64,000 nt of DNA. Origin: Phycisphaeraceae bacterium. Its GTDB lineage: Bacteria; Planctomycetota; Phycisphaerae; Phycisphaerales; UBA1924. Shown piece after piece: positions 46,132-50,807 of the stretch (positions within the stretch are counted from its first letter, which is position 1; every line of letters starts with the position of its first letter). Made by a program: the position numbers and the translations under genes. A model generated the notes under the pieces. It was not told the origin of the DNA and ran no database searches. It saw only the letters and a list, made by a program, of their open reading frames with translations. Where the stretch lies: assembly GCA_019636615.1 (NCBI GenBank), contig JAHBXF010000001.1, positions 372,001 to 436,000 of the forward strand. Reading direction: 5' to 3'.

Positions 46132-46376
46132 CGAATGCCGAATGCCGAATGCCCAATGCCTTCTGCCTTCTGCCTTCTGCCTTCTGCCTTCTGCCGAATG
46201 CCCAATGCCTAATGCCTACTGCCCAATGCCTTCTGCCTTCTGCCTTCTGCCTTCTGCCGAATGCCCAATGCCTAATGCCTAATGCCTAATGCCCAATGCC
46301 TTCTGCCTTCTGCCTTCTGCCGAATTCCCAATGCCTAATGCCTTCTGCCCAATGCCTTCTGCCTTCTGCCTTCTGC
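46132..46376. repeat. Heptanucleotide tandem repeat tract 1 (35 units)
   Basis: Thirty-five contiguous seven-base units in unbroken register. Variants are CGAATGC, CCAATGC, CTAATGC and CTTCTGC, plus single substitutions (CTACTGC, CGAATTC). They are ordered in blocks of nine, nine, nine and eight units, each block beginning with CGAATGC CCAATGC (or the three CGAATGC at the start) and ending in a run of CTTCTGC, so there is a higher-order period of about 63 bases. Length 245 bases. It is non-coding on any reasonable reading and has no spacers. A second tract of the same family lies at 50514-50807. Confidence 0.95.
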
Positions 46377-46392
46377 CTTTCCCCTCTCCTCG

Positions 46393-46864
46393 CACCGAAG
46401 GTGCGAAGGGCTGTAGCCACGCGGTGAAGCGCGGGGTCGCCGGCAGGCGACCCAAGCGCAACCCGTGGTCAGCATCACACTGAACCAGACCGCCCCGGCC
46501 GGGGCGGAGGAACGCCACTCCAGCGCACTCAACTTCCACACCTCACGCGCCTTCTCTCAATACGCCGCCACGCCTCCCTCTGAAATCTCAGATCTCAGGT
46601 CGAATCCTCTGCCCTCTTCCGGCCACGGCGAAGCCGTGGAGGTCAACTGCCGGGGGTAGCCGCCAGAGCGGCACCCCCGGATGCGCACCCACAAAACTCT
46701 CCCAGCGCCGCGAAGCGGCGCGGCCAATCTCCTCGCCCACGCCCTCACCCTCGCAACCAACCACACCAGAGCCCGCTTCAGCGGGCTTAGCGATGTCGGG
46801 CCGCCGCTTCAGCGGCGGTAACACGCCGCCCATCGATCAATCTCCCCAGCCCCTTTCAACGGGC
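46393..46864. repeat. Array of small hairpins, many with a GAA or TTC(A) loop
   Basis: Between tract 1 and the KAP gene lie at least eight perfect or near-perfect palindromes. Stems around GAA are at 46391-46405, 46623-46639 (CCACGGC/GCCGTGG) and 46705-46721 (GCGCCGC/GCGGCGC). Stems around TTCA are at 46771-46786 and 46801-46818; a decayed one is at about 46848-46864. Others are at 46434-46453 (GGGTCGCC/GGCGACCC), 46490-46507 (18-base palindrome) and 46650-46680 (one mismatch). Stem sequences differ but the layout repeats, as in REP-like elements. No gene is supported in this stretch. Confidence 0.75.
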
Positions 46865-46903: not shown

Positions 46904-49900
46904 GTGCCTACGAACGAAGAACTCCGCCCACTCTTTCTACTCAGCGATGAACCGCTGATCGGCGACGAACCCGACGACCTGCAACGAGAACAGGATGCGC
47001 GGCTGATCGCCGAGGTCGTCCTAGGCAATCGTGGCCCGTTCGCGATTGGGGTGTACGGGGAATGGGGCTCGGGAAAGACAACACTGCTCCACCGGGTGCG
47101 GCGATTGCTGAGCGCAGAGAAGCCTGGCAATAACGCCGAACCACTCTTTCCATATATCGTGCCGGTCTATTTCAATGCGTGGCAGTATGGGCGAGATAAA
47201 GAGCCCATCGCCTTTTTGGCCGCCGAGATCCGCGACGCAATCGCCCTGCACTTGAAGTCGCTGCAAACACCCACCGACAAGGCGGGAGAAATGGCACTCT
47301 CGTGGCTGCGTTCCGCGATGGACGTGGCACGGGCGGGCATCTACGGAGTCAGTGCTGGAATCCAAGACCTAGTGAGTGGCGTCAATTTGACGATCAGCCC
47401 TAAGGACATGATCGACCGCTACGATGCCTTTCAGAACGAGCGACAAGACCCCAACAGCCGCGTATGGAAAGAGCACGTAGACAAATCCGTTGTCGCTGCT
47501 TCGCTGCGTTCGATGCGGGCTGATGATCACGCCTTGGGTGAACTTCGCCCGGGTGAAGAACGGCGGATCCCCCGCGTCGTGGTCTTCATCGATGACCTCG
47601 ACCGCTGCACCGCTGAAGAAGCAGTGACCATCCTCAGAGGCATCAAACTCGCCCTCTCTCAGCCGGGCTTCATCTTTGTGTTGACACTCAACCCCAAAGC
47701 CCTCTTGCCGTATGTAAACACCCTCAGCGTGTCACGCGGGCACACGCCGGCAGGAACATACGAGGCCGGTGCAGTGGCCGGACAGACCATCTACCTCGAC
47801 AAACTCATCCAGTTGCCATACGCCCTGCGCCTGCGCCGCGACCGCTTCGGAGCCTTTTGCACAACCACGATTAAAGAACGGCTCAAAGATCATGTGCCCA
47901 GCGAGATGCACGCAACGTTAATCACCCTCCGCCCAGCGCTGCGCGACAGCAGCCTGAACAACCCCCGCACATTCAAACGGTTGCTCAACGAGGTCTTGAT
48001 CGCCGCCCAACGAGCGTCCGGCGATCTTCTCGCAGAACTCGATCCGTCTCCCGACAAAGCCCGCGCGCTCTTGGCTGGGCTGCACCTGCTCCAAGACATC
48101 CCCAGACGGTTCAACCAGCCCGATGTGCTGCGGGAACTCTCTGCCAAGCAGGATCTATGCGATGCCATCTCGGCCCACACGCTGGAAATACTCGCCCGCG
48201 CCGTTCATCAGTGCGATGATGAACGCCTGCACGAGTCGATCCGCCGCCCGCTGGGTGCAGTGGACGCATCAGCAGACTTAGACATCACCCGCGCGGCAAC
48301 GACTCACAAGCAGTTGATCACCGCACTCGACGCGGTAACGCCCCTCAACGGTCTCTTCAAATCCGACTTTGGCACGCGCTGGCTGAAAGAGCCGCTCGTT
48401 CGGCAACACTTAGAGATAGAATGGTCGCTGTCACCCCCGCTTCTAGATTTCGAGCCAGAAGGCTCGACACCCACCACCATGAACCAGAGCGTTGCGACTT
48501 CCACGCAGGAAGCGACACCTGCTTCATCGCAGCCATCCACACCCGCACGCAAAGCCCCGCGTTTCACCGAACAGGTAGACCGCGGGCTTGCCGCCGAGAT
48601 CGCATTGATCGAGCGGGCAGCACGAAAAAATCTCAATTTAGATGAGTCGCAGGATCTCACGCCTGAACAGTGGGCACAGGTGACCCAACTCCATTTTCCC
48701 GGACCATCTATCACCGACCGCGGGATTGCATGGCTGGTCCGTGCCGATTCTGGCCTCAGCAGCCTTGCCTCACTAAGACTCAGAGGGGAAGAGGTGTCTA
48801 ATGAAGTGGTGAAGCAACTTGCACGCGCTGATACTGGCCTTAAAGCCCTGAAATCGCTAACCATTGAGTTTGCGAGCATTAATGCAGATGGGGCGAAAGA
48901 ACTCGCACGCACAGATACTGGCCTCAAGACCTTGGAGTCACTAAATATTGGTTATACGGATATAACTGACGCTGGAATGAAAGATCTTGCACGCGAGAAC
49001 ACTGGACTCAAGGCCCTCACCTCACTGAGCCTCGTAGGCAACACAGTAAAAAATAGCTGGGCAACAGAACTCGCACGCTCAGATACCGGGCTTAGTACCT
49101 TGACCTCACTGTCCCTCGATCGTACAGACATGACAGACGACGGGGTGAAAATACTGGCAGACGCGAACACTGGGCTCAAAAATCTGACTACACTATACCT
49201 GAGTGGCAATGAGTTGACAGCCGCAGCGGCGAGAGGACTCTCTCGCCCAGACAGCGGCCTCAAGGCCCTGACCGCATTGTTCCTCACGGGCTACAACGTG
49301 ACAGATGAATGGATTTTAGAGATATCGCGTTCGCAGACCAGTCTCAAGGCCCTCTCCGAACTGGGCCTTTGGTACACACATGTGACGGAAGCTGGCATCA
49401 AGGATCTCTCACGCGCCGATACTGGACTCGGCGCCTTAACATCATTGAGCATCACTGGCCCGAATGTAACGGATACCATAGTTCAAGAACTGGCACGCTC
49501 GGATACCAAACTCAAAGCCCTGATTGCGCTGAACCTCTGGAACTCGCAGATCTCTGATGCGGGGGTAAAGATACTCGCGCGGCCAGATACCGGCCTTATG
49601 TCCCTAACTACGCTAAACCTCGGCTGTACGCGGGTGACGGATAAGGGCATAAATGAACTGGCCCGGGCCAGCTCCGGCCTCAAGACCCTGACCACGTTGA
49701 TCCTCTCACATACGCAGGTTACAGATGCAGGGGTGGAAGATCTCACCCGTGCCGACACCGGACTCAAGGATCTGGCCGTGCTCGACCTCTCTCATACACC
49801 GGTGACGGATGCGGGGGTGACAGAACTCACCCGTACCGACACGGGCCTCAAGGCTCTAGCCGTGCTCGACCTCTCGCATACGTCGGTGACGGATGCGGGC

Positions 49901-50062
49901 GTGATGGAACTCGTCCGCCAAGATACTGGCCTCAGCAATTTGGCAACATTGGTAATACGTTACACAAACGTGACCGCTGCGGCAATGCGATCAATCAAAG
50001 AGCAGCCGTCAAGGCTAAAGGTCATTTACAGTCCCCCAGTGACACTATTGAGTACGACTTAA
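46904..50062 (+). CDS. KAP-family P-loop NTPase with 16 C-terminal leucine-rich repeats
   Basis: A 1,052-residue protein from GTG 46904. TATCCT ends six bases before the GTG; no Shine-Dalgarno. The KAP NTPase comprises Walker A GEWGSGKTT (52-60), the KAP signature FNAWQYG (90-96), Walker B VVVFIDDLDRC (225-235) and NNPRTFKRLLN (352-362). A helical region follows to about 510, then a Ser/Thr/Pro linker (515-555). Residues about 593-1040 form sixteen repeats of exactly 28 residues, consensus xLxLxxTxVTDAGVxxLARxDTGLKALT, a ribonuclease inhibitor/GALA-like horseshoe. No clear membrane helices. NTPase plus repeat sensor is the layout of NLR-type immune proteins; KAP proteins include PifA, which blocks phage T7 growth. 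Stands alone, between heptamer repeat tracts. Confidence 0.9.
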   Translation: MPTNEELRPLFLLSDEPLIGDEPDDLQREQDARLIAEVVLGNRGPFAIGVYGEWGSGKTTLLHRVRRLLSAEKPGNNAEPLFPYIVPVYFNAWQYGRDKEPIAFLAAEIRDAIALHLKSLQTPTDKAGEMALSWLRSAMDVARAGIYGVSAGIQDLVSGVNLTISPKDMIDRYDAFQNERQDPNSRVWKEHVDKSVVAASLRSMRADDHALGELRPGEERRIPRVVVFIDDLDRCTAEEAVTILRGIKLALSQPGFIFVLTLNPKALLPYVNTLSVSRGHTPAGTYEAGAVAGQTIYLDKLIQLPYALRLRRDRFGAFCTTTIKERLKDHVPSEMHATLITLRPALRDSSLNNPRTFKRLLNEVLIAAQRASGDLLAELDPSPDKARALLAGLHLLQDIPRRFNQPDVLRELSAKQDLCDAISAHTLEILARAVHQCDDERLHESIRRPLGAVDASADLDITRAATTHKQLITALDAVTPLNGLFKSDFGTRWLKEPLVRQHLEIEWSLSPPLLDFEPEGSTPTTMNQSVATSTQEATPASSQPSTPARKAPRFTEQVDRGLAAEIALIERAARKNLNLDESQDLTPEQWAQVTQLHFPGPSITDRGIAWLVRADSGLSSLASLRLRGEEVSNEVVKQLARADTGLKALKSLTIEFASINADGAKELARTDTGLKTLESLNIGYTDITDAGMKDLARENTGLKALTSLSLVGNTVKNSWATELARSDTGLSTLTSLSLDRTDMTDDGVKILADANTGLKNLTTLYLSGNELTAAAARGLSRPDSGLKALTALFLTGYNVTDEWILEISRSQTSLKALSELGLWYTHVTEAGIKDLSRADTGLGALTSLSITGPNVTDTIVQELARSDTKLKALIALNLWNSQISDAGVKILARPDTGLMSLTTLNLGCTRVTDKGINELARASSGLKTLTTLILSHTQVTDAGVEDLTRADTGLKDLAVLDLSHTPVTDAGVTELTRTDTGLKALAVLDLSHTSVTDAGVMELVRQDTGLSNLATLVIRYTNVTAAAMRSIKEQPSRLKVIYSPPVTLLSTT

Positions 50063-50513: not shown

Positions 50514-50807
50514 CTTCTGCCTTCTGCCGAATGCCTAATGCCTAATGCCTAATGCCCTCTGCCGAATGCCCAATGCCTAATGCCCAATGCCTAATGCCTA
50601 ATGCCTTCTGCCTATTGCCTTCTGCCGAATGCCCTCTGCCTTCTGCCGAATGCCCAATGCCCAATGCCCAATGCCTAATGCCTAATGCCTAATGCCCAAT
50701 GCCCAATGCCTAGTGCCTTCTGCCTTCTGCCGAATGCCCAATGCCTAATGCCTAATGCCTAATGCCTAATGCCTAACGCCTAATGCCCTCTGCCTTCTGC
50801 CGAATGC
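50514..50807. repeat. Heptanucleotide tandem repeat tract 2 (42 units)
   Basis: Forty-two contiguous seven-base units in unbroken register, from the same set as tract 1 (CGAATGC, CCAATGC, CTAATGC, CTTCTGC, plus CCTCTGC, CTATTGC, CTAGTGC, CTAACGC). Same orientation as tract 1. The blocks are less regular, with more CTAATGC and fewer CTTCTGC runs. Total 294 bases. The two tracts bracket the hairpin array, the KAP gene and its flanks. Confidence 0.95.

Follow-up and report, generated by a model that had tools for sequence, protein, structure and literature searches.

A KAP NTPase joined to a leucine-rich repeat array in a Phycisphaeraceae bacterium: a candidate NLR-like sensor-switch

A single open reading frame in the window (the whole 64,000-nucleotide stretch of DNA that was analysed) joins a KAP NTPase to a C-terminal array of leucine-rich repeats (LRRs), the switch-plus-sensor layout that the original prediction had described and that both Pfam and AlphaFold bear out. 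In our estimate the chances are about even that its product is an NLR-like intracellular sensor-switch with an immune purpose, in which KAP takes the place of the STAND NTPase (NACHT or NB-ARC). The fusion was thought to be undescribed, and indeed no description of it was found in the literature searched on KAP defence proteins, bacterial NACHT-LRR proteins and sensors of diversity-generating retroelements (DGRs), where an early mention is possible.

Architecture of the gene and its product

The gene and its parts are listed below in positions of the window.

46904..50062, + strand: KAP-LRR gene, 1,052 residues, GTG start, intact open frame
46937..48076, + strand: KAP NTPase domain (residues 12-391), AlphaFold pLDDT mostly 75-95 except in the inserted helices
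47057..47083, + strand: Walker A motif GEWGSGKTT (residues 52-60, including Lys58)
47204..47536, + strand: soluble insert of four helices that separates the Walker A strand from the Walker B strand (residues 101-211)
47588..47608, + strand: Walker B motif IDDLDRC (residues 229-235)
48101..48427, + strand: helical region separating KAP from the linker (residues about 400-508), low AlphaFold confidence
48428..48577, + strand: Ser/Thr/Pro-rich flexible linker (residues about 509-558), pLDDT under 50
48578..48679, + strand: helical cap at the N-terminal end of the LRRs (IERAARKNLNL..LTPEQWAQ), a motif shared with several homologues
48680..50023, + strand: sixteen 28-residue LRR units of the ribonuclease-inhibitor type (residues 593-1040)
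49688..49939, + strand: LRR units 13-15, the most alike of the array

An alternative in-frame ATG at position 46793 would add 37 residues to the N-terminus. The GTG start is favoured because the N-terminus of the nearest homologue, L104 (MSDRLDPLLLLSDEP), aligns with that of the window protein begun at the GTG (VPTNEELRPLFLLSDEP). The Pfam model KAP_NTPase (PF07693) matches the protein with an E value of 2.2e-30 (106.3 bits against a cut-off of 20), several LRR models are matched as well, and AlphaFold predicts the NTPase part well when 50 aligned KAPs are used. Lys58, which the original prediction had singled out in Walker A, is present and, together with G52, G55 and G57, invariant across eight KAP-LRR proteins. 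Many KAP P-loop NTPases, though not all, typically carry transmembrane helices within the NTPase domain; KAPs such as Tmn have membrane segments at the place of the soluble helical insert of the window protein, in which no transmembrane segment was found (Kyte-Doolittle hydropathy maximum 1.31). Nor does it have an N-terminal effector domain, Walker A beginning at residue 52. A flexible linker had been proposed to join the NTPase to the repeats; the disordered stretch at 509-558 is there, but the helical region of residues 400-508 or so precedes it. The N-cap motif that follows the linker recurs in L021, L110, L030, L025 and other homologues.

The claim of exactly sixteen units of equal length holds to the residue, and a 12-residue C-terminal tail follows the last of them. 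Column agreement within the array is 262, against a mean of 104 and a maximum of 118 in 1,000 shuffles, which rules out a chance repeat as its origin. Between residues 595 and 1015 the AlphaFold model has strands spaced 28 residues apart, and in both sequence and fold the solenoid matches that of ribonuclease inhibitor and of NLRP, NOD2 and NLRC4. Units 13-15, in contrast to their earlier description as nearly identical products of a recent expansion, are merely the most alike: protein identity is 71% for 13/14, 79% for 14/15 and 64% for 13/15, DNA identity is 76%, 77% and 63%, respectively, with 7-11 synonymous differences per 28 codons, and they are not freshly duplicated.

Genomic setting and distribution

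The gene lies between a block encoding signal peptidase and PSP1 and an aspartate/ornithine carbamoyltransferase gene, with a transporter and a Trp/Tyr-class tRNA synthetase also among its neighbours. A defence-type location had been expected; no defence island was found when the window and 20 further loci of KAP-LRR genes were searched for one. Among the 93 neighbour genes of those 20 loci no family recurs, and the only defence genes are stray PADLOC matches. A consistent housekeeping operon, which had been named as a finding that would speak against a defence gene, is likewise missing: the neighbours are housekeeping genes, yet never of the same operon. KAP-LRR genes are solitary at all loci, the exception to the pattern being L022, where a KAP without LRR stands beside a NACHT-LRR gene. 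The G+C content of the window gene is 57% against 68% in its flanks, and at 14 of 17 loci the gene is below its flanks, by a difference that is small in several. These results support the view that the window gene is accessory, patchy in its occurrence and compositionally foreign.

Repeats had been reported to border the region, and heptamer arrays are indeed present on both sides:

46132..46379, no strand assigned: upstream heptamer tandem array, AATGCCT / TTCTGCC variants with a 63-base higher order
50525..50787, no strand assigned: downstream heptamer tandem array, in the same orientation as the upstream array

All 37 matches to the 18-mers of these arrays fall on one strand. Outside the two arrays the genome has no copy of the TTCTGCC-type 18-mer, and the AATGCCT type is found elsewhere only at C1:681 kb and C2:159 kb. 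Since no heptamer arrays accompany the other KAP-LRR loci, we treat them as a local feature and reject them as a component of the system. No empty insertion site could be defined, because the congener homologues of pyrB and the tRNA synthetase are located in different surroundings. The PSP1/signal-peptidase block is conserved in a second genome (L161 6943-17458, G510), where a KAP-LRR gene of the other of the two lineages described below lies near it. This gene lies on the opposite side of the block from the window arrangement, so that there is no common insertion site, and the proximity may be a coincidence.

Within its own genome the window protein is the sole match of its kind; the second KAP gene there (L070 6073-9834, C1:842908) encodes 1,253 residues with predicted membrane segments and without LRR. 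KAP genes occur in 34 of the 163 genomes of the family, and KAP-LRR fusions were found in the relatives L021, L025, L030, L101, L102, L104 and L110. A first contig scan queried with the window protein alone gave no match. The wider set came from a profile search, which recovered the fusion in other Planctomycetota, Verrucomicrobiota, Deltaproteobacteria/Desulfobacterales (Thermodesulfobacteriota), Alphaproteobacteria (Pseudomonadota) and Caenarcanales (Melainabacteria). The search for homologues that the original prediction had called for thus shows the layout recurring across several phyla, in a total of more than 20 proteins. It was not found in any plasmid or phage record. The matches in viral contigs are KAPs without LRR, and an LRR suggested by the tree label of one viral sequence (L141) was rejected, as no LRR pattern is present.

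In phylogenetic trees a single clade with good support holds nearly all KAP-LRR proteins. The window protein and L104, its nearest homologue (KAP identity 49-50%), form a second, smaller clade joined by the LRR-less L106. A single KAP-LRR clade is rejected (AU p 0.009), and the fusion therefore appears to have arisen at least twice, or to have been lost repeatedly.

Evolution of the sensor

Repeat number, whose comparison had also been proposed, is not uniform: the window protein has 16 LRR units and L104 about 5. Unit length also differs, as in L164, L165 and L168, whose KAP domains are 75-78% identical and whose LRR units are 24, 22 and 24 residues long, respectively. The KAP domains of L164, L165, L166 and L168 evolve with a dN/dS of 0.12-0.21. 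Because KAPs this similar bear either 22- or 24-residue arrays, the alignments indicate that the LRR sensor has been replaced while the KAP switch stayed under purifying selection.

Change also occurs within arrays, and in the youngest of them the amino-acid replacements fall mainly in the codons of exposed strand residues. Ten units of L021 have nearly the same DNA sequence, silent sites included, except at codons 5, 7, 8 and 10, which specify the exposed positions in the LxxLxLxxTxV strand. In the nine internal units these codons hold 70% of the nonsynonymous changes; pN at exposed positions is 0.48, compared with a pS of 0.10 in the framework, and synonymous change is likewise raised in the same four codons. 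The corresponding ratios for the arrays of L165 and L172 are 3.1 and 4.0. In the window array the exposed strand codons are among the most variable positions (permutation p 1e-4), which can be claimed as variability and not as selection, because its synonymous sites are saturated. The same variability of exposed codons is present in a kinase-LRR protein (L024) and a secreted one (L031) and absent from the NACHT-LRR protein of L022. The pattern therefore argues for a binding surface, not for immunity as such, and the variable exposed positions of the LRR are supported as a candidate ligand-contacting face. The kinase-LRR protein (L024 8976-12068, G052) is serine/threonine-kinase-like, with LRRs of the same 28-residue type as those of the window and strongly variable exposed codons.

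A further group of KAPs carries FGE/C-type-lectin domains instead of LRR. One locus encodes two tandem KAP-FGE (lectin-type) fusions (L116 8918-13574, G455:C12). Another (L115 6240-13586, G396:C153) contains a KAP gene with an adjacent lectin-type (FGE) reading frame, a reverse transcriptase and a phosphoesterase-NACHT-lectin gene. Its template and variable repeats differ by 20 mismatches, 20/20 of them at template adenines, the signature of a DGR. KAP switches have been named among DGR-diversified antigen sensors (PMC10907252). Given this mention and the KAP beside a DGR-diversified lectin-type sensor, KAP is a chassis for diversified sensors, the LRR being one among them. The lectin-KAPs group with the window clade in one tree (SH-aLRT 83) and not in another, and the AU test does not reject a constraint that keeps them together with it (p 0.205). 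A DGR was rejected as the means by which the window gene diversifies, as no match to a reverse transcriptase (RVT_1) was found in its genome. The results as a whole show a conserved ATPase coupled to a sensor and a modular exchange of the latter.

Proposed mechanism, alternatives and relation to known systems

Of the immune-receptor (NLR-like) layout that the original prediction had assigned, the switch-plus-sensor part stands; the protein has no N-terminal effector, and its NTPase is KAP rather than STAND. We infer an immune role and propose the following model. A ligand, most likely a phage product or that of another mobile element, would be bound by the LRR horseshoe on its variable, concave side, and binding would lift an autoinhibition relayed via the helical region and linker. 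The KAP domains would then assemble into an ATP-dependent ring, by homology to RdrA and to QatA, for which the evidence is by mass, and the ring would halt the cell or the invader, alone or through a partner encoded elsewhere. Because no effector domain is visible, the output must come from the ring or from a partner not linked to the gene. Counting against an immune reading are the lack of a defence island, of an effector domain and of any plasmid or phage record with the fusion.

The protein could instead be a non-immune intracellular regulator or scaffold whose LRR reads an endogenous protein of the cell cycle, stress response or envelope, with array turnover reflecting loose constraint. 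This would fit the housekeeping neighbours, the missing effector domain and the similarly variable exposed positions of secreted and kinase LRR arrays. We nevertheless consider it rather unlikely, as the very patchy occurrence with two origins and no conserved partner gene, the complete exchange of one LRR class for another between KAPs that are 75-78% identical, and the foreign base composition in several genomes are not what an unchanging ligand of the cell itself would favour. A determinant of kin discrimination, or of self and non-self between related cells, would account for a variable sensor on an NTPase switch encoded by a solitary accessory gene, and this alternative has been raised for related STAND/DGR sensors of multicellular bacteria (PMC10907252). 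Neither a means of delivery nor a cognate polymorphic partner is seen beside the gene, however, which makes such a role, as opposed to an anti-phage one, decidedly improbable. If the LRR is a mere docking arm recruiting a nucleic-acid-handling KAP ATPase to a complex, with the ATPase as output, it is left unexplained why the LRR surface is so rapidly replaced and diversified. The binding of QatA to both ssDNA and dsDNA (PMC13279940) and the nearness of the predicted KAP fold to ORC/Cdc6 and clamp loaders speak in favour of this idea, to which we give very little weight.

Returning to the immune sensor-switch, a wider and more tentative proposal, which we put forward as a possibility that is more doubtful than not, is that KAP-LRR proteins are bacterial immune receptors of a class that evolved separately, with at least two origins, and in which an RdrA-like KAP ring ATPase replaces STAND. 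Their LRR repertoire would be renewed as units multiply, as entire arrays are exchanged and through changes restricted to the ligand face, in parallel with the LRR receptors of plants and jawless vertebrates. If this is true, an NLR-style architecture has been built in bacteria more than once from another NTPase family, and KAP is a second chassis for exchanged recognition modules (DGR lectins and LRRs of three lengths). L164, L165 and L168, with nearly identical KAP switches and different LRR arrays, would then provide a natural domain-swap series.

Among known receptors, animal NLRs (NLRP, NOD2), plant NB-LRR proteins and bacterial NACHT-LRR proteins place an NTPase before a C-terminal LRR as the window protein does, and NLRP, NOD2 and NLRC4 share its 28-residue ribonuclease-inhibitor-type horseshoe. 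Their NTPase is of the STAND class (NACHT or NB-ARC), whereas that of the window is KAP: the NACHT model reaches 17.2 bits against a cut-off of 26.7, and the best model is KAP. The tripartite NLR also has an N-terminal effector, unlike the window protein. In the genus of the window, the KAP gene without LRR noted above is followed 12 bases later by the NACHT-LRR gene (L022 8127-12812, G001), and the third-position G+C of both is far below that of their neighbours.

The proposed kinship with defence KAP proteins is borne out by matches to the PDC-S20, QatA and PifA models. The RdrA rings of RADAR are the only Foldseek matches below 0.001 to the KAP model; in VIA-align RdrA scores a Z of 15.2 (rmsd 5.0 over 292 residues) against 13.9 for Cdc6/ORC, a modest gap, and a profile search gave a weak match to the RdrA chain 8fnu, which is labelled KAP NTPase (E 0.15). 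RdrA is described as forming heptamers and as having four inserted helices that follow strands 2 and 3 (PMC9994260), at a place equivalent to the insert of residues 101-211, and ring formation by KAP-LRR proteins may be expected by analogy. RdrA differs in having a helical C-terminal lobe where the window protein has an LRR array, and in working with the deaminase RdrB, which was not found among the window neighbours tested. QatA shares the KAP domain (NCBIfam E 1e-20, 73.9 bits against a cut-off of 600; PADLOC 1.6e-16) and is a heptamer or octamer by mass (PMC13279940); the window gene has no qatBCD neighbours and an LRR C-terminus. The PifA model matches with an E value of 7e-16, and Tmn is a KAP protein for which single-gene defence has been reported (PMC11846954). 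Tmn has two transmembrane segments, while the window protein is soluble and has none. PifA and Tmn use a KAP NTPase like that of the window, and no LRR is described for either. In eukaryotes, Kidins220/ARMS is a KAP membrane protein and neuronal scaffold that joins KAP to a repeat solenoid as the window protein does, but of ankyrin rather than leucine-rich repeats. In the DGR-diversified KAP/NACHT sensors a KAP switch is followed by an exchangeable C-type-lectin (FGE-like) sensor in the place that an LRR occupies in the window protein (PMC10907252); those sensors diversify via reverse transcriptase, whereas diversification of the window type would proceed by repeat turnover.
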